DNA of 64,000 nt from Tetradesmus obliquus (lineage: Eukaryota; Chlorophyta; Chlorophyceae; Sphaeropleales; Scenedesmaceae), in contig CP126206.1 of assembly GCA_030272155.1 (NCBI GenBank), forward strand, positions 248,001 through 312,000. The letters are read 5' to 3'. This document shows positions 3,586-63,418 of this stretch, in pieces. Position 1 is the first letter of the stretch; every line of letters begins with the position of its first letter. The position numbers and the translations under genes are program-made. The notes beneath the pieces are model-generated. The model made no database searches and was not told the origin of the DNA. It worked only from the letters and a program-made list of their open reading frames with translations.

Positions 3586-3656
<71 letters not shown>

Positions 3657-10443: not shown

Positions 10444-10509
10444 TCCTCCGAGTCCTCGAAGAAGAAGATAGGGTGGATTGTACAGGGGCTTGTTTAGATT
10501 CAAGCCGAC

Positions 10510-11230
10510 CAGCTGGGCATGGTACAAATGTAGCGAACAAGTGGCCTACATATAAATGTCAAGCTTTCAACGACGAATCTAAATCAATTTGAGCTGTTAG
10601 CAGTGGCACAGTGTGCTGCAAGAAAAGTGCTAAAACACGTTGCCCTGAAGTGCCCCGACTCGGCTGTTACATATGTTAACTTGCGCTGTAGAGTGTTGCT
10701 GTGGGTGCTGCTGCCTGCAACATGTTTTGATGTGTAATGTAATTCTTCTGGGCTTCCCTTGCTGGCTGATCAGGCACTGCAGTTCTGGTGTGCCAAGTGC
10801 CCTGCCGCTGCTGTTGCGCTCTGCTGCTTGGCGCTGTGCGCTGCACATACAGTTTCAACTGTCATATCTGTTACATAGTGCGCAACACCGCTTCAGGCCC
10901 ACCGGCAGCTGCTGCGCGCGTGCAGCTAGTGTGGCTGCACAGAGTTTGTTGAGGACTAGTATTCTACACAGTTTCCTGCAAACATCCTTCTTGTGTGATC
11001 AAGGCGAATTCTGGAGCTCAAAATTACTAGCAGTTTGGAGCTGCTGCTGCTGGCAGGTGAGGCCCTGCTGTGCAGTTGGGATGCAAGCAAACCAAAGCAG
11101 CAGCACTGGCAGCTGTGCCTTACTGTGCCTGCCACATACAGCAGGTTGCTATGCCAGCATGGCTGTCTGCTTGCAAGCTGTGTTGATTTGTTGCAAAATG
11201 CAGATGCTGCGTTTGTACCATGCCCAGCTG
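10510..11230. repeat. S repeat, copy 1 (721 bp, terminal)
   Basis: S starts CAGCTGGGCATGGTACAAA and ends with the inverse of the same 19 bp; the similarity extends to about 25 bp with two mismatches. It sits between every M segment in direct orientation, like an LTR. It contains a plus-strand open stretch (10534-10737; NLNQFELLAVAQCAARKVLK) and Cys-rich simple frames that do not look coding. The left outer flank is GAC. Confidence 0.85.
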
Positions 11231-11646
11231 AGACTGTAATTGCATGCCAGCCTTTGCTGCAGCAGTTCTTAGCCTGCACTGCATCCCTTCTGTTGCTGTT
11301 CCTGGACTTGGTGCCTGAAGTGCACACCTACCTTTTTATGCTATGGCTGATGTGCTCCTGCTGCTGCTGGGTATGCAGCTGATTTTACTGCGGCAGTAGC
11401 ACTGTTTGCAATCTATGATATCTGCCTGGGCAGGAGCAGCAGCAGCAGCAGACGACAGGAAACGTTACAGCTATGTGTGCTTTGAATCACGGTGGCATGT
11501 GCTTTTCAACTGCAGTTGTTGGTGGGCGTGACAGCAGCAGCATGTGCCAGCAGGTGCCTCACTGCTGCTACCTAATTTTTTTGCGAAGGCTTTCAGTACA
11601 GCGCTGTGTTCAACGTCGTTTAATGTTCATTCCAAATTGTTTACAG

Positions 11647-12003
11647 GTGCTGCAGCAACGCGATCGAGCTGCAGTGCTCTGGACATCCGTGTTGACCCGT
11701 CAGGCTCACCTGCAACGTGGGCTTGCGAGGGCCCTTCAGGATTGGTTTTCTGCCTCAACCAAAGGTACGTTGCATAATGTGTCGACGATGATGATTTGGC
11801 AGCGTGGCAGCTGTGTGGCTCGGAGCAGGCTTGTTTCAGGGCACCTTTCCGTCTTGAAGTTCTTCACCATACCGCAGTTTATTTCGGCTCGAGCCATGCT
11901 TAAATCAATCATCAAATATAAAAGTTAATTTACCGCAAGGTTTCTTGCAGGCTCCGTGCATAAAGCTTGGCAGGCCAACAGTCGTCACAACTCACGCGAG
12001 TGA
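11647..12003 (+). CDS. Small spliced gene of the unit, 3' exons (copy 1), unknown function
   Basis: Two exons join in phase: 11647-11764 (acceptor TTTACAG, donor AAAG/GTACGT) and 11951-12003 (acceptor TTCTTGCAG), ending in TGA. The encoded C-terminus is VLQQRDRAAVLWTSVLTRQ..., a basic helical segment ending NSRHNSRE. The strong splice signals and the in-phase stop are the support; there is no recognised domain. The 5' exon was not fixed. One possibility is the open stretch in S (about 10534-10690), which would make S supply the promoter and first exon. It lies head-on to the transposase gene, about 475 bp from its stop. Confidence 0.4.
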
Positions 12004-12477
12004 CAGCAGCAGGAGCCATGTTCAAGAGCTACGAGCGTAGTTGAATTATGCCAGGAATTTTTCCGTTACATTCGGCAATTCAGCATGACTGCAAATGCCT
12101 GTATGTGAAATGGCCACCAAGTGCCTTGCTGCCTTGCAGCAGTTGTTTGAAGCAGGAACCACTCCTGACAAGTCTGAGCACCAAAGCACAACATCCACAT
12201 GTATTTTACTCATACCATAAGCTTCTGAACATGCCATTTTGTTCCCACACTCGCTCTCAGGTGAACACCAGGAAGTAACCACCCTACAGCAGCATGGTGC
12301 CAGCACCTCCCAAGCCCCGGGCGGTGCGAACATGCAGGACGGCGACAAGCGCAGGTGCCCTCAAACAGGTGAGCTCAAGGGCTCTCTGAGTGACACCCTG
12401 TGCACTGCTGGCTAGCCATCTTGCATGCAGCTGACAGCCACAATCCCTACATGCCATGCAGCAGCACAACAGCAGAC

Positions 12478-14680
12478 TCAGCGCTGGTCTTTCCTGGGGT
12501 AGTCGCCAGCAGTGCCGCGGCGCTGCTTCCCGTCTCGGCACACACAAAGACTCCTCTTGCGGCTGCGCACCATGTTCCACAAATCTGGCAGCTTCAATAC
12601 ATCAGCCATGACAGATGCAGCTGTGATCTTCATAAAGGTGTTGTACAGGCCGTGCTGCAGGTCTCGCGGCTTCACATCAGCACCACCCAGCTGGCAGCTG
12701 TTATACAAGTAGTTGCGGAAGGCTGCTTTGAGGCTGCCAAATGCATGTTCAATGGGCTTGTTGAAATCTGGGGAGTAGGGTGCAAAGTGCAGCAGTTGAT
12801 CTTCATTGATGCCACCTGCAACCAACATCTGTAGGCCATCCTTCCCCAGGTGAACACTTGGGTTGTCAAAGATGTACAGCGGCGTAGTGCCGCGCTGCGC
12901 CTGCTGTTGGTTGGCTATGTCTTTGATCTCCATCATGCAGTGAACAAACTCCAGCTGAGTCATGCTCTTGGCCTGCTGGGTTGGTTTGTCCTTCAACTGC
13001 AGGTGCAAGAATTGCCGGATTGGCAGCGCGCAGCCTTGTTAGCAGCGCAGGAGCGCAACGCAGCGGTGTGGATGGATGCGATGGGACGCTTCTACATCAG
13101 GCTCAGTGCAGACAAGGTCAGATACATCACCAAGTCTATGAGGGGGCAGAGATTGTTCTGGGGCTTGACTGGCTGCTTGCCAGGTGTGCAGCACTTCAAG
13201 TTCTGCGCGCCGCGTGCAGTCGCCACAGCAGCAGCGCTTCAGTGCAAGATGTGTGCATGTGTGCTGGCTGATATGGTTGGCACATGCATGGGCTACATGC
13301 ACACAAGCGAGGAGCAGCTGGTGTGCATGCTGTACTGGTTAGGCACCAGCAGCAGTATGTGTGCTCAGGTAGCAGTGGACTGGTGGGATGGGCGGATTGA
13401 TTTCCTCCATGCACAGCACAACATGCTGATTCAAGCTGATGGCTCATGTCATGACAAGGGTTATTACAGCAGCAGCAGGCAGCTGGTGCTGGAGCGCGAC
13501 TTTGAGTTCTGCGCTGCAGCATATGACAACTGGCTGCAGCCAGGGGGCAGTGTGCTGCGCGTGAGCACGCGCGGATGTGACATGCACCAATCCTTGCACA
13601 TTGGTTTCCAGCTTGCTGCTGCAGGTGGTGTCATTGTACTGTCACCAAGTTACTCTGCTGTTATGTTCACAGCAGAGGACGGGCAGCGCTGCAGCTTCAC
13701 TACAGCACTAAAAAAGCACTGCGGGACTGTTACTACACAGTACAGCAGGGCTGGCATGTCTTTCAATGGCAGGCGCCTGCGCAGTAGCAGCGCACACTCA
13801 CCATGTACGGTACATTGAGGTTGCCAACATGGTCCTTGTTGTCTGTTGTGCCGGTGACAAACTTGCAGTAGACGGGCCCGTGCACAGCGTTGACGGCGCA
13901 GACAAAGTGCAACTTGACCGGCTCTGCGTCCTTGCCCTTGCGCATCCATTTGCATGGCAGCACAGCATGCACGTTTTCATCGTGTGCATCACAATAGACC
14001 TTGACGGAGCCGCCTGCCAGGTCTGACATCCAGAATTTGCACTCATCAATGAAATATATGCGCTGCAGCATGTCGGGGTCACTTTGGTACTTCTGCCACA
14101 GCGCCGCAGCTGCTGCCTTTCGCCTTTGTTTCTGTATCTTTGTCAAGTCCAGCTTCACATCTATTCTCCTGCGCACCAGGTCGGGGTCAGCCCATTTCAT
14201 GTACTTCAGCAGTCTCTTGGGTGTGATGTTGTAGTCAGTGCACAGCTGGCGCAGTGTGTCATTTTCCTGACATGCGACTTCGATTTAAGTCCACCACACG
14301 TGCACATCAACCTTTCTCTTTGATTCTGCAGATGGGTAGGCCTTTACCACCTTGCCAGCCTTGAATATTGTGCTGGCATGGAAGGCGACAGCATGTGGGA
14401 CATTTGAGGGCCTGCCGCCATGCTTGGGTGTAGCCACTGTGCCGTTTGCTGTGAAGTTCTTGTGATGAAGTTTGCAGAACCGGTTCAGGTCCCCGTGTAC
14501 CTCCTTGGCGTAGTCAGGGTACTGCTCTCTGTAATAATATGCGGGCGTAAACTTTTCGTCAGCTGTGGTCAAAGCCATTGTCACACACACCACCGCCGCC
14601 ACCCTCATGGCCGTGGTGCTGCGGTTGCTCTTCCATCCTGAAGGGTGCTTGCGCACCATGGACAGCCCCCCTGCAGGCAT
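12478..14680 (-). CDS. DDE transposase, Tc1/IS630-like, three exons (copy 1)
   Basis: Exons 14680-14312, 14266-13802 and 12996-12478 join in phase 0 (donors AAAG/GTTGAT and ATG/GTGAGT; acceptors ATGTCAG and CACCTGCAG), giving about 450 residues. The first intron is only 45 nt, so it is the less certain one. Exon 2 begins with a helix-turn-helix-like segment (NDTLRQLCTDYNITPKRLLK) and contains IYFIDECKFW, the first catalytic Asp. Exon 3 contains PLYIFDNPSVH, the second Asp, and FAPYSPDFNKPIEHAFGSLK, matching the SPDLNPIE block with the third acid. I count 38 residues between the second Asp and that Glu (DD38E-like). Expected role: cut-and-paste transposition of the element. The reading frame is open in all five copies, so it could be active. 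Intron 2 (12997-13801) houses an opposite-strand nuclease-like frame. Family level is confident, subfamily is not. Confidence 0.75.
13072..13818 (+). CDS. PD-(D/E)XK (DUF559/Vsr-like) nuclease-like frame nested in transposase intron (copy 1)
   Basis: A plus-strand frame is open through the whole antisense of transposase intron 2 and stops at 13818, just inside exon 2. Its second half reads WWDGRIDFLHAQHNMLIQADG then SCH, a run of about 20 residues with ERDFEFC, GGSVLRVSTRGCD, and a hydrophobic GGVIVLSPSYSAVMF. This order (D-F, strand, x-x-x-D-G-x-x-H, R-D helix, G-x-V-L-R strand) matches the core of DUF559/Vsr-type nucleases, except that the usual Glu before the Asp-Gly is Gln here. A splice of 13118-13368 (AAG/GTCAGA to CTCAG) is in phase 0 and would remove the Cys-rich, non-protein-like middle. 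The start at 13072 (MDAMGRFYIRL) is tentative; upstream of about 13000 the frame is just antisense of exon 3. Role unknown: homing-type passenger or accessory of transposition. Copies are identical. Confidence 0.45.
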   Translation: MDAMGRFYIRLSADKVRYITKSMRGQRLFWGLTGCLPGVQHFKFCAPRAVATAAALQCKMCACVLADMVGTCMGYMHTSEEQLVCMLYWLGTSSSMCAQVAVDWWDGRIDFLHAQHNMLIQADGSCHDKGYYSSSRQLVLERDFEFCAAAYDNWLQPGGSVLRVSTRGCDMHQSLHIGFQLAAAGGVIVLSPSYSAVMFTAEDGQRCSFTTALKKHCGTVTTQYSRAGMSFNGRRLRSSSAHSPCTVH

Positions 14681-14788
14681 GAATCCAAAACATATGGATA
14701 TGTTAGCTGTGCTTCTAGCAGCAGTGTGAACAGAAGTAACTGGTCAGGTCAAACAACAGCCTGCGGCATCATGGAGTTTGACCGGTCT

Positions 14789-15509
14789 CAGCTGGGCATG
14801 GTACAAATGTAGCGAACAAGTGGCCTACATATAAATGTCAAGCTTTCAACGACGAATCTAAATCAATTTGAGCTGTTAGCAGTGGCACAGTGTGCTGCAA
14901 GAAAAGTGCTAAAACACGTTGCCCTGAAGTGCCCCGACTCGGCTGTTACATATGTTAACTTGCGCTGTAGAGTGTTGCTGTGGGTGCTGCTGCCTGCAAC
15001 ATGTTTTGATGTGTAATGTAATTCTTCTGGGCTTCCCTTGCTGGCTGATCAGGCACTGCAGTTCTGGTGTGCCAAGTGCCCTGCCGCTGCTGTTGCGCTC
15101 TGCTGCTTGGCGCTGTGCGCTGCACATACAGTTTCAACTGTCATATCTGTTACATAGTGCGCAACACCGCTTCAGGCCCACCGGCAGCTGCTGCGCGCGT
15201 GCAGCTAGTGTGGCTGCACAGAGTTTGTTGAGGACTAGTATTCTACACAGTTTCCTGCAAACATCCTTCTTGTGTGATCAAGGCGAATTCTGGAGCTCAA
15301 AATTACTAGCAGTTTGGAGCTGCTGCTGCTGGCAGGTGAGGCCCTGCTGTGCAGTTGGGATGCAAGCAAACCAAAGCAGCAGCACTGGCAGCTGTGCCTT
15401 ACTGTGCCTGCCACATACAGCAGGTTGCTATGCCAGCATGGCTGTCTGCTTGCAAGCTGTGTTGATTTGTTGCAAAATGCAGATGCTGCGTTTGTACCAT
15501 GCCCAGCTG
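14789..15509. repeat. S repeat, copy 2
   Basis: Internal copy; preceded by GTCT and followed by AGAC, so M itself begins AGAC and ends GTCT. Confidence 0.85.
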
Positions 15510-15925
15510 AGACTGTAATTGCATGCCAGCCTTTGCTGCAGCAGTTCTTAGCCTGCACTGCATCCCTTCTGTTGCTGTTCCTGGACTTGGTGCCTGAAGT
15601 GCACACCTACCTTTTTATGCTATGGCTGATGTGCTCCTGCTGCTGCTGGGTATGCAGCTGATTTTACTGCGGCAGTAGCACTGTTTGCAATCTATGATAT
15701 CTGCCTGGGCAGGAGCAGCAGCAGCAGCAGACGACAGGAAACGTTACAGCTATGTGTGCTTTGAATCACGGTGGCATGTGCTTTTCAACTGCAGTTGTTG
15801 GTGGGCGTGACAGCAGCAGCATGTGCCAGCAGGTGCCTCACTGCTGCTACCTAATTTTTTTGCGAAGGCTTTCAGTACAGCGCTGTGTTCAACGTCGTTT
15901 AATGTTCATTCCAAATTGTTTACAG

Positions 15926-16282
15926 GTGCTGCAGCAACGCGATCGAGCTGCAGTGCTCTGGACATCCGTGTTGACCCGTCAGGCTCACCTGCAACGTGGG
16001 CTTGCGAGGGCCCTTCAGGATTGGTTTTCTGCCTCAACCAAAGGTACGTTGCATAATGTGTCGACGATGATGATTTGGCAGCGTGGCAGCTGTGTGGCTC
16101 GGAGCAGGCTTGTTTCAGGGCACCTTTCCGTCTTGAAGTTCTTCACCATACCGCAGTTTATTTCGGCTCGAGCCATGCTTAAATCAATCATCAAATATAA
16201 AAGTTAATTTACCGCAAGGTTTCTTGCAGGCTCCGTGCATAAAGCTTGGCAGGCCAACAGTCGTCACAACTCACGCGAGTGA
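15926..16282 (+). CDS. Small spliced gene of the unit (copy 2)
   Basis: Exons 15926-16043 and 16230-16282; identical to copy 1. Confidence 0.4.
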
Positions 16283-16756
16283 CAGCAGCAGGAGCCATGT
16301 TCAAGAGCTACGAGCGTAGTTGAATTATGCCAGGAATTTTTCCGTTACATTCGGCAATTCAGCATGACTGCAAATGCCTGTATGTGAAATGGCCACCAAG
16401 TGCCTTGCTGCCTTGCAGCAGTTGTTTGAAGCAGGAACCACTCCTGACAAGTCTGAGCACCAAAGCACAACATCCACATGTATTTTACTCATACCATAAG
16501 CTTCTGAACATGCCATTTTGTTCCCACACTCGCTCTCAGGTGAACACCAGGAAGTAACCACCCTACAGCAGCATGGTGCCAGCACCTCCCAAGCCCCGGG
16601 CGGTGCGAACATGCAGGACGGCGACAAGCGCAGGTGCCCTCAAACAGGTGAGCTCAAGGGCTCTCTGAGTGACACCCTGTGCACTGCTGGCTAGCCATCT
16701 TGCATGCAGCTGACAGCCACAATCCCTACATGCCATGCAGCAGCACAACAGCAGAC

Positions 16757-18959
16757 TCAGCGCTGGTCTTTCCTGGGGTAGTCGCCAGCAGTGCCGCGGC
16801 GCTGCTTCCCGTCTCGGCACACACAAAGACTCCTCTTGCGGCTGCGCACCATGTTCCACAAATCTGGCAGCTTCAATACATCAGCCATGACAGATGCAGC
16901 TGTGATCTTCATAAAGGTGTTGTACAGGCCGTGCTGCAGGTCTCGCGGCTTCACATCAGCACCACCCAGCTGGCAGCTGTTATACAAGTAGTTGCGGAAG
17001 GCTGCTTTGAGGCTGCCAAATGCATGTTCAATGGGCTTGTTGAAATCTGGGGAGTAGGGTGCAAAGTGCAGCAGTTGATCTTCATTGATGCCACCTGCAA
17101 CCAACATCTGTAGGCCATCCTTCCCCAGGTGAACACTTGGGTTGTCAAAGATGTACAGCGGCGTAGTGCCGCGCTGCGCCTGCTGTTGGTTGGCTATGTC
17201 TTTGATCTCCATCATGCAGTGAACAAACTCCAGCTGAGTCATGCTCTTGGCCTGCTGGGTTGGTTTGTCCTTCAACTGCAGGTGCAAGAATTGCCGGATT
17301 GGCAGCGCGCAGCCTTGTTAGCAGCGCAGGAGCGCAACGCAGCGGTGTGGATGGATGCGATGGGACGCTTCTACATCAGGCTCAGTGCAGACAAGGTCAG
17401 ATACATCACCAAGTCTATGAGGGGGCAGAGATTGTTCTGGGGCTTGACTGGCTGCTTGCCAGGTGTGCAGCACTTCAAGTTCTGCGCGCCGCGTGCAGTC
17501 GCCACAGCAGCAGCGCTTCAGTGCAAGATGTGTGCATGTGTGCTGGCTGATATGGTTGGCACATGCATGGGCTACATGCACACAAGCGAGGAGCAGCTGG
17601 TGTGCATGCTGTACTGGTTAGGCACCAGCAGCAGTATGTGTGCTCAGGTAGCAGTGGACTGGTGGGATGGGCGGATTGATTTCCTCCATGCACAGCACAA
17701 CATGCTGATTCAAGCTGATGGCTCATGTCATGACAAGGGTTATTACAGCAGCAGCAGGCAGCTGGTGCTGGAGCGCGACTTTGAGTTCTGCGCTGCAGCA
17801 TATGACAACTGGCTGCAGCCAGGGGGCAGTGTGCTGCGCGTGAGCACGCGCGGATGTGACATGCACCAATCCTTGCACATTGGTTTCCAGCTTGCTGCTG
17901 CAGGTGGTGTCATTGTACTGTCACCAAGTTACTCTGCTGTTATGTTCACAGCAGAGGACGGGCAGCGCTGCAGCTTCACTACAGCACTAAAAAAGCACTG
18001 CGGGACTGTTACTACACAGTACAGCAGGGCTGGCATGTCTTTCAATGGCAGGCGCCTGCGCAGTAGCAGCGCACACTCACCATGTACGGTACATTGAGGT
18101 TGCCAACATGGTCCTTGTTGTCTGTTGTGCCGGTGACAAACTTGCAGTAGACGGGCCCGTGCACAGCGTTGACGGCGCAGACAAAGTGCAACTTGACCGG
18201 CTCTGCGTCCTTGCCCTTGCGCATCCATTTGCATGGCAGCACAGCATGCACGTTTTCATCGTGTGCATCACAATAGACCTTGACGGAGCCGCCTGCCAGG
18301 TCTGACATCCAGAATTTGCACTCATCAATGAAATATATGCGCTGCAGCATGTCGGGGTCACTTTGGTACTTCTGCCACAGCGCCGCAGCTGCTGCCTTTC
18401 GCCTTTGTTTCTGTATCTTTGTCAAGTCCAGCTTCACATCTATTCTCCTGCGCACCAGGTCGGGGTCAGCCCATTTCATGTACTTCAGCAGTCTCTTGGG
18501 TGTGATGTTGTAGTCAGTGCACAGCTGGCGCAGTGTGTCATTTTCCTGACATGCGACTTCGATTTAAGTCCACCACACGTGCACATCAACCTTTCTCTTT
18601 GATTCTGCAGATGGGTAGGCCTTTACCACCTTGCCAGCCTTGAATATTGTGCTGGCATGGAAGGCGACAGCATGTGGGACATTTGAGGGCCTGCCGCCAT
18701 GCTTGGGTGTAGCCACTGTGCCGTTTGCTGTGAAGTTCTTGTGATGAAGTTTGCAGAACCGGTTCAGGTCCCCGTGTACCTCCTTGGCGTAGTCAGGGTA
18801 CTGCTCTCTGTAATAATATGCGGGCGTAAACTTTTCGTCAGCTGTGGTCAAAGCCATTGTCACACACACCACCGCCGCCACCCTCATGGCCGTGGTGCTG
18901 CGGTTGCTCTTCCATCCTGAAGGGTGCTTGCGCACCATGGACAGCCCCCCTGCAGGCAT
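16757..18959 (-). CDS. DDE transposase (copy 2)
   Basis: Exons 18959-18591, 18545-18081 and 17275-16757; translation identical to copy 1. Confidence 0.75.
17351..18097 (+). CDS. PD-(D/E)XK-like nested frame (copy 2)
   Basis: Identical translation; lies opposite transposase intron 17276-18080. Confidence 0.45.
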   Translation: MDAMGRFYIRLSADKVRYITKSMRGQRLFWGLTGCLPGVQHFKFCAPRAVATAAALQCKMCACVLADMVGTCMGYMHTSEEQLVCMLYWLGTSSSMCAQVAVDWWDGRIDFLHAQHNMLIQADGSCHDKGYYSSSRQLVLERDFEFCAAAYDNWLQPGGSVLRVSTRGCDMHQSLHIGFQLAAAGGVIVLSPSYSAVMFTAEDGQRCSFTTALKKHCGTVTTQYSRAGMSFNGRRLRSSSAHSPCTVH

Positions 18960-19067
18960 GAATCCAAAACATATGGATATGTTAGCTGTGCTTCTAGCAG
19001 CAGTGTGAACAGAAGTAACTGGTCAGGTCAAACAACAGCCTGCGGCATCATGGAGTTTGACCGGTCT

Positions 19068-19788
19068 CAGCTGGGCATGGTACAAATGTAGCGAACAAGT
19101 GGCCTACATATAAATGTCAAGCTTTCAACGACGAATCTAAATCAATTTGAGCTGTTAGCAGTGGCACAGTGTGCTGCAAGAAAAGTGCTAAAACACGTTG
19201 CCCTGAAGTGCCCCGACTCGGCTGTTACATATGTTAACTTGCGCTGTAGAGTGTTGCTGTGGGTGCTGCTGCCTGCAACATGTTTTGATGTGTAATGTAA
19301 TTCTTCTGGGCTTCCCTTGCTGGCTGATCAGGCACTGCAGTTCTGGTGTGCCAAGTGCCCTGCCGCTGCTGTTGCGCTCTGCTGCTTGGCGCTGTGCGCT
19401 GCACATACAGTTTCAACTGTCATATCTGTTACATAGTGCGCAACACCGCTTCAGGCCCACCGGCAGCTGCTGCGCGCGTGCAGCTAGTGTGGCTGCACAG
19501 AGTTTGTTGAGGACTAGTATTCTACACAGTTTCCTGCAAACATCCTTCTTGTGTGATCAAGGCGAATTCTGGAGCTCAAAATTACTAGCAGTTTGGAGCT
19601 GCTGCTGCTGGCAGGTGAGGCCCTGCTGTGCAGTTGGGATGCAAGCAAACCAAAGCAGCAGCACTGGCAGCTGTGCCTTACTGTGCCTGCCACATACAGC
19701 AGGTTGCTATGCCAGCATGGCTGTCTGCTTGCAAGCTGTGTTGATTTGTTGCAAAATGCAGATGCTGCGTTTGTACCATGCCCAGCTG
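19068..19788. repeat. S repeat, copy 3
   Basis: Internal copy, same junctions as copy 2. Confidence 0.85.
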
Positions 19789-20204
19789 AGACTGTAATTG
19801 CATGCCAGCCTTTGCTGCAGCAGTTCTTAGCCTGCACTGCATCCCTTCTGTTGCTGTTCCTGGACTTGGTGCCTGAAGTGCACACCTACCTTTTTATGCT
19901 ATGGCTGATGTGCTCCTGCTGCTGCTGGGTATGCAGCTGATTTTACTGCGGCAGTAGCACTGTTTGCAATCTATGATATCTGCCTGGGCAGGAGCAGCAG
20001 CAGCAGCAGACGACAGGAAACGTTACAGCTATGTGTGCTTTGAATCACGGTGGCATGTGCTTTTCAACTGCAGTTGTTGGTGGGCGTGACAGCAGCAGCA
20101 TGTGCCAGCAGGTGCCTCACTGCTGCTACCTAATTTTTTTGCGAAGGCTTTCAGTACAGCGCTGTGTTCAACGTCGTTTAATGTTCATTCCAAATTGTTT
20201 ACAG

Positions 20205-20561
20205 GTGCTGCAGCAACGCGATCGAGCTGCAGTGCTCTGGACATCCGTGTTGACCCGTCAGGCTCACCTGCAACGTGGGCTTGCGAGGGCCCTTCAGGAT
20301 TGGTTTTCTGCCTCAACCAAAGGTACGTTGCATAATGTGTCGACGATGATGATTTGGCAGCGTGGCAGCTGTGTGGCTCGGAGCAGGCTTGTTTCAGGGC
20401 ACCTTTCCGTCTTGAAGTTCTTCACCATACCGCAGTTTATTTCGGCTCGAGCCATGCTTAAATCAATCATCAAATATAAAAGTTAATTTACCGCAAGGTT
20501 TCTTGCAGGCTCCGTGCATAAAGCTTGGCAGGCCAACAGTCGTCACAACTCACGCGAGTGA
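20205..20561 (+). CDS. Small spliced gene of the unit (copy 3)
   Basis: Exons 20205-20322 and 20509-20561; identical to copy 1. Confidence 0.4.
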
Positions 20562-21035
20562 CAGCAGCAGGAGCCATGTTCAAGAGCTACGAGCGTAGTT
20601 GAATTATGCCAGGAATTTTTCCGTTACATTCGGCAATTCAGCATGACTGCAAATGCCTGTATGTGAAATGGCCACCAAGTGCCTTGCTGCCTTGCAGCAG
20701 TTGTTTGAAGCAGGAACCACTCCTGACAAGTCTGAGCACCAAAGCACAACATCCACATGTATTTTACTCATACCATAAGCTTCTGAACATGCCATTTTGT
20801 TCCCACACTCGCTCTCAGGTGAACACCAGGAAGTAACCACCCTACAGCAGCATGGTGCCAGCACCTCCCAAGCCCCGGGCGGTGCGAACATGCAGGACGG
20901 CGACAAGCGCAGGTGCCCTCAAACAGGTGAGCTCAAGGGCTCTCTGAGTGACACCCTGTGCACTGCTGGCTAGCCATCTTGCATGCAGCTGACAGCCACA
21001 ATCCCTACATGCCATGCAGCAGCACAACAGCAGAC

Positions 21036-23238: not shown

Positions 23239-23346
23239 GAATCCAAAACATATGGATATGTTAGCTGTGCTTCTAGCAGCAGTGTGAACAGAAGTAACTG
23301 GTCAGGTCAAACAACAGCCTGCGGCATCATGGAGTTTGACCGGTCT

Positions 23347-24067
23347 CAGCTGGGCATGGTACAAATGTAGCGAACAAGTGGCCTACATATAAATGTCAAG
23401 CTTTCAACGACGAATCTAAATCAATTTGAGCTGTTAGCAGTGGCACAGTGTGCTGCAAGAAAAGTGCTAAAACACGTTGCCCTGAAGTGCCCCGACTCGG
23501 CTGTTACATATGTTAACTTGCGCTGTAGAGTGTTGCTGTGGGTGCTGCTGCCTGCAACATGTTTTGATGTGTAATGTAATTCTTCTGGGCTTCCCTTGCT
23601 GGCTGATCAGGCACTGCAGTTCTGGTGTGCCAAGTGCCCTGCCGCTGCTGTTGCGCTCTGCTGCTTGGCGCTGTGCGCTGCACATACAGTTTCAACTGTC
23701 ATATCTGTTACATAGTGCGCAACACCGCTTCAGGCCCACCGGCAGCTGCTGCGCGCGTGCAGCTAGTGTGGCTGCACAGAGTTTGTTGAGGACTAGTATT
23801 CTACACAGTTTCCTGCAAACATCCTTCTTGTGTGATCAAGGCGAATTCTGGAGCTCAAAATTACTAGCAGTTTGGAGCTGCTGCTGCTGGCAGGTGAGGC
23901 CCTGCTGTGCAGTTGGGATGCAAGCAAACCAAAGCAGCAGCACTGGCAGCTGTGCCTTACTGTGCCTGCCACATACAGCAGGTTGCTATGCCAGCATGGC
24001 TGTCTGCTTGCAAGCTGTGTTGATTTGTTGCAAAATGCAGATGCTGCGTTTGTACCATGCCCAGCTG
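23347..24067. repeat. S repeat, copy 4
   Basis: Internal copy, same junctions as copy 2. Confidence 0.85.
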
Positions 24068-24483
24068 AGACTGTAATTGCATGCCAGCCTTTGCTGCAGC
24101 AGTTCTTAGCCTGCACTGCATCCCTTCTGTTGCTGTTCCTGGACTTGGTGCCTGAAGTGCACACCTACCTTTTTATGCTATGGCTGATGTGCTCCTGCTG
24201 CTGCTGGGTATGCAGCTGATTTTACTGCGGCAGTAGCACTGTTTGCAATCTATGATATCTGCCTGGGCAGGAGCAGCAGCAGCAGCAGACGACAGGAAAC
24301 GTTACAGCTATGTGTGCTTTGAATCACGGTGGCATGTGCTTTTCAACTGCAGTTGTTGGTGGGCGTGACAGCAGCAGCATGTGCCAGCAGGTGCCTCACT
24401 GCTGCTACCTAATTTTTTTGCGAAGGCTTTCAGTACAGCGCTGTGTTCAACGTCGTTTAATGTTCATTCCAAATTGTTTACAG

Positions 24484-24840
24484 GTGCTGCAGCAACGCGA
24501 TCGAGCTGCAGTGCTCTGGACATCCGTGTTGACCCGTCAGGCTCACCTGCAACGTGGGCTTGCGAGGGCCCTTCAGGATTGGTTTTCTGCCTCAACCAAA
24601 GGTACGTTGCATAATGTGTCGACGATGATGATTTGGCAGCGTGGCAGCTGTGTGGCTCGGAGCAGGCTTGTTTCAGGGCACCTTTCCGTCTTGAAGTTCT
24701 TCACCATACCGCAGTTTATTTCGGCTCGAGCCATGCTTAAATCAATCATCAAATATAAAAGTTAATTTACCGCAAGGTTTCTTGCAGGCTCCGTGCATAA
24801 AGCTTGGCAGGCCAACAGTCGTCACAACTCACGCGAGTGA
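24484..24840 (+). CDS. Small spliced gene of the unit (copy 4)
   Basis: Exons 24484-24601 and 24788-24840; identical to copy 1. Confidence 0.4.
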
Positions 24841-25314
24841 CAGCAGCAGGAGCCATGTTCAAGAGCTACGAGCGTAGTTGAATTATGCCAGGAATTTTTC
24901 CGTTACATTCGGCAATTCAGCATGACTGCAAATGCCTGTATGTGAAATGGCCACCAAGTGCCTTGCTGCCTTGCAGCAGTTGTTTGAAGCAGGAACCACT
25001 CCTGACAAGTCTGAGCACCAAAGCACAACATCCACATGTATTTTACTCATACCATAAGCTTCTGAACATGCCATTTTGTTCCCACACTCGCTCTCAGGTG
25101 AACACCAGGAAGTAACCACCCTACAGCAGCATGGTGCCAGCACCTCCCAAGCCCCGGGCGGTGCGAACATGCAGGACGGCGACAAGCGCAGGTGCCCTCA
25201 AACAGGTGAGCTCAAGGGCTCTCTGAGTGACACCCTGTGCACTGCTGGCTAGCCATCTTGCATGCAGCTGACAGCCACAATCCCTACATGCCATGCAGCA
25301 GCACAACAGCAGAC

Positions 25315-27517
25315 TCAGCGCTGGTCTTTCCTGGGGTAGTCGCCAGCAGTGCCGCGGCGCTGCTTCCCGTCTCGGCACACACAAAGACTCCTCTTGCGGC
25401 TGCGCACCATGTTCCACAAATCTGGCAGCTTCAATACATCAGCCATGACAGATGCAGCTGTGATCTTCATAAAGGTGTTGTACAGGCCGTGCTGCAGGTC
25501 TCGCGGCTTCACATCAGCACCACCCAGCTGGCAGCTGTTATACAAGTAGTTGCGGAAGGCTGCTTTGAGGCTGCCAAATGCATGTTCAATGGGCTTGTTG
25601 AAATCTGGGGAGTAGGGTGCAAAGTGCAGCAGTTGATCTTCATTGATGCCACCTGCAACCAACATCTGTAGGCCATCCTTCCCCAGGTGAACACTTGGGT
25701 TGTCAAAGATGTACAGCGGCGTAGTGCCGCGCTGCGCCTGCTGTTGGTTGGCTATGTCTTTGATCTCCATCATGCAGTGAACAAACTCCAGCTGAGTCAT
25801 GCTCTTGGCCTGCTGGGTTGGTTTGTCCTTCAACTGCAGGTGCAAGAATTGCCGGATTGGCAGCGCGCAGCCTTGTTAGCAGCGCAGGAGCGCAACGCAG
25901 CGGTGTGGATGGATGCGATGGGACGCTTCTACATCAGGCTCAGTGCAGACAAGGTCAGATACATCACCAAGTCTATGAGGGGGCAGAGATTGTTCTGGGG
26001 CTTGACTGGCTGCTTGCCAGGTGTGCAGCACTTCAAGTTCTGCGCGCCGCGTGCAGTCGCCACAGCAGCAGCGCTTCAGTGCAAGATGTGTGCATGTGTG
26101 CTGGCTGATATGGTTGGCACATGCATGGGCTACATGCACACAAGCGAGGAGCAGCTGGTGTGCATGCTGTACTGGTTAGGCACCAGCAGCAGTATGTGTG
26201 CTCAGGTAGCAGTGGACTGGTGGGATGGGCGGATTGATTTCCTCCATGCACAGCACAACATGCTGATTCAAGCTGATGGCTCATGTCATGACAAGGGTTA
26301 TTACAGCAGCAGCAGGCAGCTGGTGCTGGAGCGCGACTTTGAGTTCTGCGCTGCAGCATATGACAACTGGCTGCAGCCAGGGGGCAGTGTGCTGCGCGTG
26401 AGCACGCGCGGATGTGACATGCACCAATCCTTGCACATTGGTTTCCAGCTTGCTGCTGCAGGTGGTGTCATTGTACTGTCACCAAGTTACTCTGCTGTTA
26501 TGTTCACAGCAGAGGACGGGCAGCGCTGCAGCTTCACTACAGCACTAAAAAAGCACTGCGGGACTGTTACTACACAGTACAGCAGGGCTGGCATGTCTTT
26601 CAATGGCAGGCGCCTGCGCAGTAGCAGCGCACACTCACCATGTACGGTACATTGAGGTTGCCAACATGGTCCTTGTTGTCTGTTGTGCCGGTGACAAACT
26701 TGCAGTAGACGGGCCCGTGCACAGCGTTGACGGCGCAGACAAAGTGCAACTTGACCGGCTCTGCGTCCTTGCCCTTGCGCATCCATTTGCATGGCAGCAC
26801 AGCATGCACGTTTTCATCGTGTGCATCACAATAGACCTTGACGGAGCCGCCTGCCAGGTCTGACATCCAGAATTTGCACTCATCAATGAAATATATGCGC
26901 TGCAGCATGTCGGGGTCACTTTGGTACTTCTGCCACAGCGCCGCAGCTGCTGCCTTTCGCCTTTGTTTCTGTATCTTTGTCAAGTCCAGCTTCACATCTA
27001 TTCTCCTGCGCACCAGGTCGGGGTCAGCCCATTTCATGTACTTCAGCAGTCTCTTGGGTGTGATGTTGTAGTCAGTGCACAGCTGGCGCAGTGTGTCATT
27101 TTCCTGACATGCGACTTCGATTTAAGTCCACCACACGTGCACATCAACCTTTCTCTTTGATTCTGCAGATGGGTAGGCCTTTACCACCTTGCCAGCCTTG
27201 AATATTGTGCTGGCATGGAAGGCGACAGCATGTGGGACATTTGAGGGCCTGCCGCCATGCTTGGGTGTAGCCACTGTGCCGTTTGCTGTGAAGTTCTTGT
27301 GATGAAGTTTGCAGAACCGGTTCAGGTCCCCGTGTACCTCCTTGGCGTAGTCAGGGTACTGCTCTCTGTAATAATATGCGGGCGTAAACTTTTCGTCAGC
27401 TGTGGTCAAAGCCATTGTCACACACACCACCGCCGCCACCCTCATGGCCGTGGTGCTGCGGTTGCTCTTCCATCCTGAAGGGTGCTTGCGCACCATGGAC
27501 AGCCCCCCTGCAGGCAT
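25315..27517 (-). CDS. DDE transposase (copy 4)
   Basis: Exons 27517-27149, 27103-26639 and 25833-25315; translation identical to copy 1. Confidence 0.75.
25909..26655 (+). CDS. PD-(D/E)XK-like nested frame (copy 4)
   Basis: Identical translation; lies opposite transposase intron 25834-26638. Confidence 0.45.
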   Translation: MDAMGRFYIRLSADKVRYITKSMRGQRLFWGLTGCLPGVQHFKFCAPRAVATAAALQCKMCACVLADMVGTCMGYMHTSEEQLVCMLYWLGTSSSMCAQVAVDWWDGRIDFLHAQHNMLIQADGSCHDKGYYSSSRQLVLERDFEFCAAAYDNWLQPGGSVLRVSTRGCDMHQSLHIGFQLAAAGGVIVLSPSYSAVMFTAEDGQRCSFTTALKKHCGTVTTQYSRAGMSFNGRRLRSSSAHSPCTVH

Positions 27518-27625
27518 GAATCCAAAACATATGGATATGTTAGCTGTGCTTCTAGCAGCAGTGTGAACAGAAGTAACTGGTCAGGTCAAACAACAGCCTG
27601 CGGCATCATGGAGTTTGACCGGTCT

Positions 27626-28346
27626 CAGCTGGGCATGGTACAAATGTAGCGAACAAGTGGCCTACATATAAATGTCAAGCTTTCAACGACGAATCTAAAT
27701 CAATTTGAGCTGTTAGCAGTGGCACAGTGTGCTGCAAGAAAAGTGCTAAAACACGTTGCCCTGAAGTGCCCCGACTCGGCTGTTACATATGTTAACTTGC
27801 GCTGTAGAGTGTTGCTGTGGGTGCTGCTGCCTGCAACATGTTTTGATGTGTAATGTAATTCTTCTGGGCTTCCCTTGCTGGCTGATCAGGCACTGCAGTT
27901 CTGGTGTGCCAAGTGCCCTGCCGCTGCTGTTGCGCTCTGCTGCTTGGCGCTGTGCGCTGCACATACAGTTTCAACTGTCATATCTGTTACATAGTGCGCA
28001 ACACCGCTTCAGGCCCACCGGCAGCTGCTGCGCGCGTGCAGCTAGTGTGGCTGCACAGAGTTTGTTGAGGACTAGTATTCTACACAGTTTCCTGCAAACA
28101 TCCTTCTTGTGTGATCAAGGCGAATTCTGGAGCTCAAAATTACTAGCAGTTTGGAGCTGCTGCTGCTGGCAGGTGAGGCCCTGCTGTGCAGTTGGGATGC
28201 AAGCAAACCAAAGCAGCAGCACTGGCAGCTGTGCCTTACTGTGCCTGCCACATACAGCAGGTTGCTATGCCAGCATGGCTGTCTGCTTGCAAGCTGTGTT
28301 GATTTGTTGCAAAATGCAGATGCTGCGTTTGTACCATGCCCAGCTG
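27626..28346. repeat. S repeat, copy 5
   Basis: Internal copy, same junctions as copy 2. Confidence 0.85.
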
Positions 28347-28762
28347 AGACTGTAATTGCATGCCAGCCTTTGCTGCAGCAGTTCTTAGCCTGCACTGCAT
28401 CCCTTCTGTTGCTGTTCCTGGACTTGGTGCCTGAAGTGCACACCTACCTTTTTATGCTATGGCTGATGTGCTCCTGCTGCTGCTGGGTATGCAGCTGATT
28501 TTACTGCGGCAGTAGCACTGTTTGCAATCTATGATATCTGCCTGGGCAGGAGCAGCAGCAGCAGCAGACGACAGGAAACGTTACAGCTATGTGTGCTTTG
28601 AATCACGGTGGCATGTGCTTTTCAACTGCAGTTGTTGGTGGGCGTGACAGCAGCAGCATGTGCCAGCAGGTGCCTCACTGCTGCTACCTAATTTTTTTGC
28701 GAAGGCTTTCAGTACAGCGCTGTGTTCAACGTCGTTTAATGTTCATTCCAAATTGTTTACAG

Positions 28763-29119
28763 GTGCTGCAGCAACGCGATCGAGCTGCAGTGCTCTGGAC
28801 ATCCGTGTTGACCCGTCAGGCTCACCTGCAACGTGGGCTTGCGAGGGCCCTTCAGGATTGGTTTTCTGCCTCAACCAAAGGTACGTTGCATAATGTGTCG
28901 ACGATGATGATTTGGCAGCGTGGCAGCTGTGTGGCTCGGAGCAGGCTTGTTTCAGGGCACCTTTCCGTCTTGAAGTTCTTCACCATACCGCAGTTTATTT
29001 CGGCTCGAGCCATGCTTAAATCAATCATCAAATATAAAAGTTAATTTACCGCAAGGTTTCTTGCAGGCTCCGTGCATAAAGCTTGGCAGGCCAACAGTCG
29101 TCACAACTCACGCGAGTGA
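28763..29119 (+). CDS. Small spliced gene of the unit (copy 5)
   Basis: Exons 28763-28880 and 29067-29119; identical to copy 1. Confidence 0.4.
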
Positions 29120-29593
29120 CAGCAGCAGGAGCCATGTTCAAGAGCTACGAGCGTAGTTGAATTATGCCAGGAATTTTTCCGTTACATTCGGCAATTCAGC
29201 ATGACTGCAAATGCCTGTATGTGAAATGGCCACCAAGTGCCTTGCTGCCTTGCAGCAGTTGTTTGAAGCAGGAACCACTCCTGACAAGTCTGAGCACCAA
29301 AGCACAACATCCACATGTATTTTACTCATACCATAAGCTTCTGAACATGCCATTTTGTTCCCACACTCGCTCTCAGGTGAACACCAGGAAGTAACCACCC
29401 TACAGCAGCATGGTGCCAGCACCTCCCAAGCCCCGGGCGGTGCGAACATGCAGGACGGCGACAAGCGCAGGTGCCCTCAAACAGGTGAGCTCAAGGGCTC
29501 TCTGAGTGACACCCTGTGCACTGCTGGCTAGCCATCTTGCATGCAGCTGACAGCCACAATCCCTACATGCCATGCAGCAGCACAACAGCAGAC

Positions 29594-31796
29594 TCAGCGC
29601 TGGTCTTTCCTGGGGTAGTCGCCAGCAGTGCCGCGGCGCTGCTTCCCGTCTCGGCACACACAAAGACTCCTCTTGCGGCTGCGCACCATGTTCCACAAAT
29701 CTGGCAGCTTCAATACATCAGCCATGACAGATGCAGCTGTGATCTTCATAAAGGTGTTGTACAGGCCGTGCTGCAGGTCTCGCGGCTTCACATCAGCACC
29801 ACCCAGCTGGCAGCTGTTATACAAGTAGTTGCGGAAGGCTGCTTTGAGGCTGCCAAATGCATGTTCAATGGGCTTGTTGAAATCTGGGGAGTAGGGTGCA
29901 AAGTGCAGCAGTTGATCTTCATTGATGCCACCTGCAACCAACATCTGTAGGCCATCCTTCCCCAGGTGAACACTTGGGTTGTCAAAGATGTACAGCGGCG
30001 TAGTGCCGCGCTGCGCCTGCTGTTGGTTGGCTATGTCTTTGATCTCCATCATGCAGTGAACAAACTCCAGCTGAGTCATGCTCTTGGCCTGCTGGGTTGG
30101 TTTGTCCTTCAACTGCAGGTGCAAGAATTGCCGGATTGGCAGCGCGCAGCCTTGTTAGCAGCGCAGGAGCGCAACGCAGCGGTGTGGATGGATGCGATGG
30201 GACGCTTCTACATCAGGCTCAGTGCAGACAAGGTCAGATACATCACCAAGTCTATGAGGGGGCAGAGATTGTTCTGGGGCTTGACTGGCTGCTTGCCAGG
30301 TGTGCAGCACTTCAAGTTCTGCGCGCCGCGTGCAGTCGCCACAGCAGCAGCGCTTCAGTGCAAGATGTGTGCATGTGTGCTGGCTGATATGGTTGGCACA
30401 TGCATGGGCTACATGCACACAAGCGAGGAGCAGCTGGTGTGCATGCTGTACTGGTTAGGCACCAGCAGCAGTATGTGTGCTCAGGTAGCAGTGGACTGGT
30501 GGGATGGGCGGATTGATTTCCTCCATGCACAGCACAACATGCTGATTCAAGCTGATGGCTCATGTCATGACAAGGGTTATTACAGCAGCAGCAGGCAGCT
30601 GGTGCTGGAGCGCGACTTTGAGTTCTGCGCTGCAGCATATGACAACTGGCTGCAGCCAGGGGGCAGTGTGCTGCGCGTGAGCACGCGCGGATGTGACATG
30701 CACCAATCCTTGCACATTGGTTTCCAGCTTGCTGCTGCAGGTGGTGTCATTGTACTGTCACCAAGTTACTCTGCTGTTATGTTCACAGCAGAGGACGGGC
30801 AGCGCTGCAGCTTCACTACAGCACTAAAAAAGCACTGCGGGACTGTTACTACACAGTACAGCAGGGCTGGCATGTCTTTCAATGGCAGGCGCCTGCGCAG
30901 TAGCAGCGCACACTCACCATGTACGGTACATTGAGGTTGCCAACATGGTCCTTGTTGTCTGTTGTGCCGGTGACAAACTTGCAGTAGACGGGCCCGTGCA
31001 CAGCGTTGACGGCGCAGACAAAGTGCAACTTGACCGGCTCTGCGTCCTTGCCCTTGCGCATCCATTTGCATGGCAGCACAGCATGCACGTTTTCATCGTG
31101 TGCATCACAATAGACCTTGACGGAGCCGCCTGCCAGGTCTGACATCCAGAATTTGCACTCATCAATGAAATATATGCGCTGCAGCATGTCGGGGTCACTT
31201 TGGTACTTCTGCCACAGCGCCGCAGCTGCTGCCTTTCGCCTTTGTTTCTGTATCTTTGTCAAGTCCAGCTTCACATCTATTCTCCTGCGCACCAGGTCGG
31301 GGTCAGCCCATTTCATGTACTTCAGCAGTCTCTTGGGTGTGATGTTGTAGTCAGTGCACAGCTGGCGCAGTGTGTCATTTTCCTGACATGCGACTTCGAT
31401 TTAAGTCCACCACACGTGCACATCAACCTTTCTCTTTGATTCTGCAGATGGGTAGGCCTTTACCACCTTGCCAGCCTTGAATATTGTGCTGGCATGGAAG
31501 GCGACAGCATGTGGGACATTTGAGGGCCTGCCGCCATGCTTGGGTGTAGCCACTGTGCCGTTTGCTGTGAAGTTCTTGTGATGAAGTTTGCAGAACCGGT
31601 TCAGGTCCCCGTGTACCTCCTTGGCGTAGTCAGGGTACTGCTCTCTGTAATAATATGCGGGCGTAAACTTTTCGTCAGCTGTGGTCAAAGCCATTGTCAC
31701 ACACACCACCGCCGCCACCCTCATGGCCGTGGTGCTGCGGTTGCTCTTCCATCCTGAAGGGTGCTTGCGCACCATGGACAGCCCCCCTGCAGGCAT
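29594..31796 (-). CDS. DDE transposase (copy 5)
   Basis: Exons 31796-31428, 31382-30918 and 30112-29594; translation identical to copy 1. Confidence 0.75.
30188..30934 (+). CDS. PD-(D/E)XK-like nested frame (copy 5)
   Basis: Identical translation; lies opposite transposase intron 30113-30917. Confidence 0.45.
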   Translation: MDAMGRFYIRLSADKVRYITKSMRGQRLFWGLTGCLPGVQHFKFCAPRAVATAAALQCKMCACVLADMVGTCMGYMHTSEEQLVCMLYWLGTSSSMCAQVAVDWWDGRIDFLHAQHNMLIQADGSCHDKGYYSSSRQLVLERDFEFCAAAYDNWLQPGGSVLRVSTRGCDMHQSLHIGFQLAAAGGVIVLSPSYSAVMFTAEDGQRCSFTTALKKHCGTVTTQYSRAGMSFNGRRLRSSSAHSPCTVH

Positions 31797-31904
31797 GAAT
31801 CCAAAACATATGGATATGTTAGCTGTGCTTCTAGCAGCAGTGTGAACAGAAGTAACTGGTCAGGTCAAACAACAGCCTGCGGCATCATGGAGTTTGACCG
31901 GTCT

Positions 31905-32625
31905 CAGCTGGGCATGGTACAAATGTAGCGAACAAGTGGCCTACATATAAATGTCAAGCTTTCAACGACGAATCTAAATCAATTTGAGCTGTTAGCAGTG
32001 GCACAGTGTGCTGCAAGAAAAGTGCTAAAACACGTTGCCCTGAAGTGCCCCGACTCGGCTGTTACATATGTTAACTTGCGCTGTAGAGTGTTGCTGTGGG
32101 TGCTGCTGCCTGCAACATGTTTTGATGTGTAATGTAATTCTTCTGGGCTTCCCTTGCTGGCTGATCAGGCACTGCAGTTCTGGTGTGCCAAGTGCCCTGC
32201 CGCTGCTGTTGCGCTCTGCTGCTTGGCGCTGTGCGCTGCACATACAGTTTCAACTGTCATATCTGTTACATAGTGCGCAACACCGCTTCAGGCCCACCGG
32301 CAGCTGCTGCGCGCGTGCAGCTAGTGTGGCTGCACAGAGTTTGTTGAGTACTAGTATTCTACACAGTTTCCTGCAAACATCCTTCTTGTGTGATCAAGGC
32401 GAATTCTGGAGCTCAAAATTACTAGCAGTTTGGAGCTGCTGCTGCTGGCAGGTGAGGCCCTGCTGTGCAGTTGGGATGCAAGCAAACCAAAGCAGCAGCA
32501 CTGGCAGCTGTGCCTTACTGTGCCTGCCACATACAGCAGGTTGCTATGCCAGCATGGCTGTCTGCTTGCAAGCTGTGTTGATTTGTTGCAAAATGCAGAT
32601 GCTGCGTTTGTACCATGCCCAGCTG
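31905..32625. repeat. S repeat, copy 6 (right terminal)
   Basis: Identity to the unit stops exactly after CCCAGCTG, where other copies continue AGACTG but this one continues GACAAGG. It carries the single noticed difference (T at 32349), which removes a stop in one frame without creating a recognisable protein. Confidence 0.85.
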
Positions 32626-33429
32626 GACAAGGGACATACGTCCCCAGCGCACCAAACGCCTGCTCCGGCGTGCGCTCTTCCGCACATCTCGATCCGAGTC
32701 CTCGCGGACCGCAGTGGAGAGAGGCTTGTTACAGGAGAAGGCAAGCTATCACCCGAGAGTGAGTCACTCGCCCTACTTTCAGCTCACATATCGTATGAAC
32801 TCGATAGCAAGCCACAAGATGCCACCAAAGAAAACTCCAGAGGCGTCTCGCAGCCCCTATCTCCCCATAAACGAACATGTACATGCAGGGCAGCAAGTGC
32901 GAAAAGCAGCACGAAAAGCAGCATGTGCTCCACGCACCAGGCAAAAAGCGCACAGGGAAGGACAAGCATGGTCCAAACAGTAAGCGGGGTGCACAAAGGT
33001 GCTGCTCACCATGAATGTCTGGCATGATTGCATCAAGGCACTGCTGTACTCACCAGCTGGTCTGCAGACTGCAGCAAGCAGGAGCAAGCATAACTGACGC
33101 GGTGCACGACTGACAGGCAAATCAAAGCAAACTAAGGCAAACTAAGGCAAACTAGGGCTCTGCTGCTTCTGCAATCCTTACGGCTGACAAGGACAGAAAC
33201 ATGCAGCACGGAGGAAAGAGCTGAGAGACCAGCGCTGTGACACCCAACACATGCAACATGCCCTTGACAGAAACTGGAAAATCGACAACTGCTGACAGCA
33301 CAATATGCAGAGGCAGGAAGGTCAACCAGAGCGGGGCGCCAGTACAATGCGCAGCTGCGCTGGATCAGAGCACAGAAACGGGTGATTGCCAGGCACCGCA
33401 ACCCGCCAAGTAGCGGGCGCTGCCTCTGT

Positions 33430-36030: not shown

Positions 36031-36260
36031 AGAAGAAGAAGAAGAGGGGTTACACGGTGTGCACAGGCAACTACGTTGCAACGAACACCCGAAAATCTGG
36101 AACGTCGCAGATGACTCAGCAAAACAGGCTGTCACTCAAGGAGACTCACCCCAGAAAGTCTCTCTGTGTGTGTAACTTGACATATGGCCTTGCAGGCAAA
36201 GCCGTCAGTCACAGCACACGCAGTGTTGATGCTAAACAAAGGCAGGACTAGTGTAAACTT
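36031..36260 (-). mobile_element. LINE 3' tail (family of 49.1-51.6 kb)
   Basis: About 225 bp near-identical to 8404-8630 and to the complement of 51.40-51.62 kb, beginning GAAGAAGAAGAAGAGGGGTT. Only 3' UTR remains, so it is severely 5'-truncated. Confidence 0.65.

Positions 36261-42040: not shown

Positions 42041-42087
<47 letters not shown>

Positions 42088-47141: not shown

Positions 47142-47180
<39 letters not shown>

Positions 47181-48428: not shown

Positions 48429-48480
<52 letters not shown>

Positions 48481-63359: not shown

Positions 63360-63418
<59 letters not shown>

Follow-up and report, generated by a model that had tools for sequence, protein, structure and literature searches.

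KolobokP, a group of animal DNA transposons, carries an internal region (INT) between long terminal direct repeats (LTDRs) and occurs as LTDR-INT-LTDR elements, as multimers and as solo LTDRs (Kojima and Bao 2022, PMC9587614). By that account, KolobokP encodes a Kolobok transposase and a His-Me finger nuclease on opposite strands and is a unique lineage in uniting a homing-type nuclease with a DDE transposase and long direct repeats. As mechanisms, its authors suggest either unequal crossover induced by the nuclease or the integration of circles, the latter likened to the translocatable unit of IS26. A second system of interest is Sleeping Beauty, in which the cut on the non-transferred strand falls 3 nt within the element and leaves non-complementary CAG overhangs and a scar (PMC7351741). 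Here we report on a 64,000-nucleotide stretch of the green alga Tetradesmus obliquus (contig CP126206.1, C16 in our numbering, C16:248001-312000; hereafter the window), which contains a tandem array built from a direct repeat, S, and an internal region, M, and on the relatives of this array in 104.66 Mb of genome on 17 contigs. We consider it likely that they form a composite-like family of cut-and-paste DNA transposons in which S-M-S is the mobile unit.

Self-comparison of the window shows that positions 10510-32625 are organized as S-(M-S)x5, with S of 721 bp and M of 3558 bp, in five units of exactly 4279 bp that start at 10510, 14789, 19068, 23347 and 27626. The array, the period of 4,279 bp, the direct orientation of the 721-bp S and the outer ends at S, all proposed in a preliminary description made from the letters of the window, were exact in this comparison. 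The S copies S1 to S5 occupy 10510..11230, 14789..15509, 19068..19788, 23347..24067 and 27626..28346, with the terminal copy S6 at 31905..32625, and the internal regions M1 to M5 occupy 11231..14788, 15510..19067, 19789..23346, 24068..27625 and 28347..31904, all on the plus strand. The five units are identical, which agrees with the recent amplification suggested in the same description. S1 and S5 have the same sequence, S6 differs from both by one base, and the longest self-match of the window, of 17,841 bp, contains a single mismatch and a single gap. A chance origin of the S-M pattern is excluded by this length and identity. S opens with CAGCTGGGCATGGTACAAA, and the reverse complement of this sequence closes S, giving 19-bp terminal inverted repeats (TIRs; in S1, 10510..10528 on the plus strand and 11212..11230 on the minus strand). 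The first bases of S are thus CAG and the last bases CTG. The left flank of the array ends in CCGAC and the right flank begins with GACAAG, a 3-bp target-site duplication of GAC (10507..10509 and 32626..32628, neither with a strand). The inner S copies that were read are flanked by the same M ends (GTCT before S and AGAC after it) without a target duplication. Rfam at its gathering threshold had no match in the window.

The same arrangement was found across the genome. When up to 3 mismatches were allowed, the 19-bp TIR had 441 genome matches (219 forward and 222 reverse), while the reversed control had 1 and 4. At least 155 M units were present at no fewer than 29 loci; these are lower bounds, obtained by combining the 125 best-scored copies of an endonuclease open reading frame (ORF) with the 136 best-scored copies of transposase exon 1 (both described below) and by counting units less than 13 kb apart as one locus. 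Two more M loci, C1:9626276 and C15:2543171, were seen through their TIR ends only. Two or more M units were found at 15 loci, and the largest arrays have at least 27 and 24 units. A single S-M-S copy lies at C5:3649159 with the duplication GCC/GCC. A perfect 3-bp duplication was found at the outer S ends of all 25 loci at which both ends were read, 6 of them solo S (18 of 18 loci, then 4 of 4 further loci and 3 of 3 further solo S, with one-end loci left uncounted). In the first 18 loci, 15 have the duplications GAC (window), GCC, GGT, TCT, ACA, TTT, ATT, AGC, TCA, TAC, CGG, AAC, TAC, ACA and TTG, and three solo S have GGC, GGG and TGT. The four further loci have ACA (C17:993063), ATC (C5:1158931), GCT (C4:4321501) and ATC (C7:5173452), and the three further solo S (L074, L079 and L028) have TCT, GTG and TAT. 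The last of these, L028 1501-1845 (C1:9134755), is internally deleted, with 345 bp left, and retains both TIRs and its TAT duplication. There was no shared target sequence, TA or other, among the 25 loci with duplications. The single S-M-S copies and duplication-flanked solo S that the preliminary description had suggested looking for therefore exist. Taken together, the S-M-S arrangement with 19-bp TIRs agrees with its view of a DNA transposon whose long terminal direct repeats each have TIRs of their own, laid out as in long terminal repeat (LTR) elements.

Two simple explanations for this arrangement can be weighed at this point. If two copies of a miniature inverted-repeat transposable element (S) had happened to flank a transposase-bearing M, and the unit had been mobilized opportunistically, solo S copies with target duplications would resemble such miniature elements, as they do, and the inner S-M joints would lack duplications, as they also do. 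However, S-M units recur at 29 or more loci in 155 or more units, and M subfamilies 52-57 bases apart indicate that the arrangement is established, so a chance composite is very improbable. It is harder still to believe that the arrays are artefacts of assembling repeats: the very high identity of the units would invite such errors, but the target duplications are perfect at 25 of 25 loci, the contigs are of megabase size, single S-M-S copies occur elsewhere, and internal scars and inversions mark individual units.

The subfamilies differ by 52-57 bases in M. Between the loci L084 and L088, 31 of the 52 mismatches in M fall in 11531-12131 (window coordinates), 600 of about 3560 bp, and the coding part of M is nearly identical, synonymous sites included; the low divergence of the coding part may reflect conversion rather than selection. 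Upstream of C1:10838332, a degraded S-like sequence (L041 428-1136) that is 77-80% identical to S lies beside an S-M-S copy, and the family or a relative of it is therefore old in this genome. At the right end of an array at 195-225 kb of C16 (L083 373-1519), the last S holds a 421-bp insertion at which the S coordinates overlap by 5 bp (45/41); the insert is probably a different element, flanked by a 5-bp duplication.

The joints between units show that S-bounded DNA has left the arrays. In 27 of 104 measured pairs of neighbouring units, M regions were 3561-3564 bp apart instead of 4280-4282 bp, and S was missing. A pattern that allowed a gap of 0-30 nt found 11 M-M joints, and in each of them the M ends were separated by exactly 3 nt. 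When the gap was fixed at NNN and a known M variant was allowed, 29 joints were found, 18 with CAG and 11 with CTG, none with any of the other 62 triplets, and the control gave 0. These include 26 of the 27 S-less pairs; with the remaining pair, 30 S-less joints were read in total, 29 with CAG or CTG and one with CACTG. On the other hand, excision of M alone would leave S-S joints, and none with exact TIR ends at a distance of up to 30 nt was found, in a search that S copies with variant TIRs fall outside.

The CAG/CTG scars bear directly on how the arrays arose. The preliminary description had named unequal exchange, the process that multiplies tandem LTR elements, as the source. If a single S-M-S insertion were followed only by homologous recombination between S copies, with neither of the encoded enzymes involved in array dynamics, then arrays with a single target duplication, identical units, solo S with duplications and higher-order repeats would all be expected, and all are present. 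Yet such exchange alone fails to account for the joints, 29 of 30 with CAG or CTG and one with CACTG, which indicate that S-bounded DNA was excised within the arrays. It fails equally on the inversions, since 6 of 104 neighbouring unit pairs have M in opposite orientation (three +- and three -+) and exchange between direct repeats gives no inversion. We therefore regard passive exchange as an unlikely sole cause. The scars, at the least, require that a transposase cut within the arrays.

Where the sequence was read, the joints of inverted units are exact to the base. An array at C16:195-225 kb contains a block S- M- S- within forward units, the array on C3 starts S- M- S+ M+, and C5:6497730 reads S+ M- S+. 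The arrays also continued to grow. In the C12 array (C12:3947518-4044497) the spacing alternates 4280/3562 across many units, which makes a 7842-bp higher-order repeat that bears the scar, and three successive scars there have a flanking variant in common; the spacing alternates likewise in the array at C5:1158931-1270228. These scar-bearing higher-order repeats show that scar segments were amplified and that tandem growth therefore went on in place after the excisions. The 24-unit array (97 kb) and the array of at least 27 units (111 kb) have one target duplication each, and each of them therefore began as a single insertion.

Haplotypes are specific to loci. Scores and stop patterns are mostly uniform within an array and different between arrays, the exceptions being C17 and C16:894128, where scores differ slightly, and the array at C16:724855, where 2 of 10 units have TAA. 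Among the loci compared, the S copies have 0-3 base differences within a locus and 0-65 between loci. This uniformity fits out-of-register exchange or break repair inside the array. Another route would be a circle: an S-M circle, formed by recombination between two S copies or by joined ends, could enter a resident S or be copied by a rolling circle, and arrays would arrive as concatemers. The strict alternation of S and M apart from scars and the single target duplication per array agree with this, and circle insertion is also considered for KolobokP by its authors (PMC9587614). Nevertheless, the scar-bearing higher-order units inside arrays point to growth after excision in place, and we think it improbable that circles built the arrays. 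In a separate region of C16 (891804-923336), a spacing of 10,558 bp between units occurs two times, and the S left ends at 891804, 902362 and 912920 are preceded by GT and not by an M end; here a tandem duplication may have taken in host DNA from the flank, which would break the simple alternation of S and M.

The minus strand of M is predicted to encode a two-exon transposase. In M1, exon 1 (14659-13802; 13802..14659 in ascending order) would carry the first candidate catalytic D and exon 2 (12996-12481; 12481..12996) the candidate second D and the E, and the intron (13801-12997; 12997..13801) is placed by its GT..AG ends and the reading frame. The candidate triad is D in FIDE, D in IFDN and E in PIEH; 38 residues separate the second D from the E. 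Window exon 2 matched Pfam DDE_3 with an E of 2.4e-5, and in alignment A3 (the window transposase and 13 relatives) 11 of 14 proteins matched DDE_3, with a best E of 1.3e-6. Thirteen proteins were relatives of exon 1 and thirteen of exon 2; no relatives of exon 2 were found in prokaryote genomes. Judged by its sequence, the M transposase is IS630/Tc1-like (DDE_3), and its SPDFN(K/R/Q)PIE-type motif is one that we take to resemble the Tc1/mariner family. Tc1/mariner transposases have 34 residues between the second D and the E. Zator/ISAzo13-like elements combine a 3-bp target duplication with a PF07592-type transposase, and in the algal transposase PF07592 had no match at E up to 1, which is a weak test. 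Among six ORF stretches of S and M compared with Pfam, DDE_3 was the sole match below an E of 0.01 and no reverse transcriptase was present, so that the preliminary description holds in giving M a DDE transposase and no reverse transcriptase. Exon 1 is free of stops in 130 of 136 scored copies. The copies with an in-frame stop are the five window units and C5:3649159. A 45-nt intron across this stop was considered and rejected: the relatives read that stretch as coding, which makes it part of the exon, interrupted by a stop in the window copies.

As an account of the content of M, the preliminary description was incomplete, for the other strand holds a conserved ORF for a putative endonuclease. 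This ORF lies antisense over the transposase intron on the plus strand of M (12835..13815 in M1, start codon uncertain) and has 317 aa in most scored copies. Of 125 scored copies, 112 are free of stops; TAA occurs in 2 and TGA in 11, the latter all on C17. At two neighbouring loci, C17:931051 and C17:995390-1034896, the TGA occurs in the ORF of all 11 scored units, and the scored transposase exon 1 is open there. The ORF has 13 relatives at 52-95% identity, with D189 and H206 invariant and many other positions conserved, and 5 of the 13 bear the source name very-short-patch-repair endonuclease. The possible active-site residues in alignment A1 are E159, D189, H206 and D207, which we take, from general knowledge, as a lead towards an EDxHD active site. 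A search with the endonuclease alignment found no relatives in viral contigs, and the relative P0022 had none in phage records. From its relatives, the antisense ORF is a probable Vsr/DUF559-like nuclease.

In the window units and at C5:3649159, a one-base length difference changes the last residues of the endonuclease ORF. With this altered C-terminus and the stop in exon 1, the window units look non-autonomous. Since both genes are damaged, the haplotype is common to C5:3649159 and five copies were nevertheless reached, the window array was presumably mobilized and amplified in trans, and intact relatives would have supplied the proteins that moved it.

We propose that the TIRs of S are the substrate of a transposase, presumably the one encoded on the minus strand of M itself. 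When the outermost pair of TIRs is used, S-M-S or S would be inserted with a 3-bp duplication; when inner pairs are used, S or a longer S-bounded block would be excised from the array, leaving a TIR-derived scar that is nearly always CAG or CTG. A Sleeping Beauty-like cut, 3 nt inside each end on one strand, would produce S fragments and M ends with fitting 3-nt overhangs. S-bounded blocks could then religate in either orientation with perfect S-M joints, while M-M joints would carry a mismatch that is resolved to CAG or CTG. Such overhangs fit the lack of S-S joints. Recombination between S copies that already stand in opposite orientation could add further flips of M. In addition, the transposase, and perhaps the Vsr-like endonuclease as well, may break the array, and out-of-register repair from neighbouring units would then let arrays grow and shrink, as proposed for KolobokP.

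Several observations weigh against this reading. The DDE_3 match of the window transposase is below the Pfam curated cut-off, at 24.6 against 28.6 bits. The 27th S-less pair, at C5:1178150-1178205, has five bases between the M ends, CACTG on the M strand, instead of a 3-nt scar, although CACTG also looks TIR-derived in view of the CAG at the start of S and the CTG at its end. The 30 joints are not all independent, as scar-bearing segments were amplified, and an M-M joint is the same whether one S or a longer S-bounded block was excised. For the endonuclease, DUF559 matches appeared in 6 of 8 proteins scanned, all below the cut-off (best E 0.0074), and none for the algal family's own protein; NCBIfam had no match in 5 proteins scanned, and no solved structure matched the ORF. 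The endonuclease profile had no significant similarity to E. coli Vsr (probability 0.3%), two structure predictions were unusable, with predicted local distance difference test (pLDDT) scores of 38 and 45, and no protein-level selection on the ORF was seen among four genome copies, with amino acid-changing differences (pN) about equal to synonymous ones (pS) and few changes.

The window contains other repeats. At 53247-56789 and 58734-61568 on the minus strand lie two Gypsy-type polyprotein ORFs, both with matches to reverse transcriptase, RNase H and an integrase zinc-binding domain, one with a PHD finger and one with an integrase core and a chromodomain. Together with the intron-bearing transposase and these Gypsy elements, 52 genome matches to the chlorophyll a/b-binding family, every one above the cut-off, point to a photosynthetic eukaryote; of 14 control genomes, Synechococcus elongatus alone gave a signal for that family. 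Near the array, on either side of it, are other interspersed repeats that are 95-99% identical (9778-10443/50621-51281; 32720-33349/36310-36928; 8401-8758/51268-51622 and 36035-36258), and a related short repetitive motif occurs in both orientations at 3570-3680, 42021-42086, 47122-47203, 48418-48493 and 63352-63422.

The algal family shares features with several known systems. As in tandem LTR retrotransposons and terminal-repeat retrotransposons in miniature, tandem units have common terminal direct repeats and solo repeats occur; in contrast to these, no reverse transcriptase is encoded in the ORFs scanned, and S ends in 19-bp TIRs and leaves scars on excision. As in Tc1/mariner, the transposase is of the DDE_3 type, and 29 of 30 joints carry a CAG/CTG scar of the kind described for Sleeping Beauty (PMC7351741). 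Unlike Tc1/mariner elements with their TA duplication, the algal family has duplicated 3 bp of varied sequence at 25 of 25 loci, and it has long direct repeats and a second protein. The possible active-site residues of the putative nuclease may correspond to those of EDxHD, Vsr-like homing endonucleases such as I-Bth0305I (PMC3943268); no significant match in sequence or structure was found.

The closest likeness is to KolobokP, which was the only precedent for the architecture in the literature searched, a search without subscription journals, Repbase or bioRxiv. The preliminary description had supposed that such a eukaryotic DNA transposon would be new; KolobokP precedes it. As described by Kojima and Bao (PMC9587614), KolobokP also has an internal region between long terminal direct repeats that bear their own short TIRs, and besides its monomers there are solo repeats and (LTDR-INT)n-LTDR multimers. 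Most have target duplications, of 3-4 or 4-5 bp there and 3 bp in the alga. Its INT-INT joints are likewise ascribed to excision, and its sizes are similar, with LTDRs of about 450 or 660 bp and autonomous elements of 4.0-4.7 kb in oyster. On the other hand, by the same account KolobokP ends are 5'-RR and YY-3', whereas the algal S starts with CAG and ends with CTG; KolobokP INT-INT joints lose 3-4 bp, whereas the algal joints keep a TIR-derived CAG/CTG scar. The algal transposase has DDE_3 as its only Pfam match and would thereby differ from that of KolobokP. The algal nuclease, going by sequence only, is probably Vsr/DUF559-like, with no His-Me-type family listed among its matches, and its ORF is antisense over the transposase intron. 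The host is an alga and not an animal; some of its arrays contain inverted units, and the largest have at least 24-27 units. As its transposase and nuclease both seem to differ, the algal family is probably independent of KolobokP, a case of convergence.

We suggest tentatively, as a possibility short of our favoured expectation, that this is a second independent origin of the plan that joins a direct-repeat DNA transposon to an endonuclease: an IS630/Tc1-like element in an alga might have gained an antisense Vsr-like endonuclease whose cuts add multiplication in place, S and M might work as a cohesive-end system of two parts, with S-bounded blocks being cut, flipped, religated and re-copied, and satellite-like arrays might thus be made by the element's own enzymes and not by host recombination alone. 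If the lineage is separate, with a different transposase, excision chemistry and nuclease, the combination would be a recurrent solution, and the link between nuclease and multimerization could be tested by comparison. The genome is a favourable system, with near-identical units, many open transposase and endonuclease frames and some 30 S-less joints that record excisions, and it would offer a route from a cut-and-paste element to satellite-like DNA. The family is best filed as an IS630/Tc1-like lineage, as yet unplaced, whose composite plan is KolobokP-like; it works like KolobokP and is not classed as a KolobokP.

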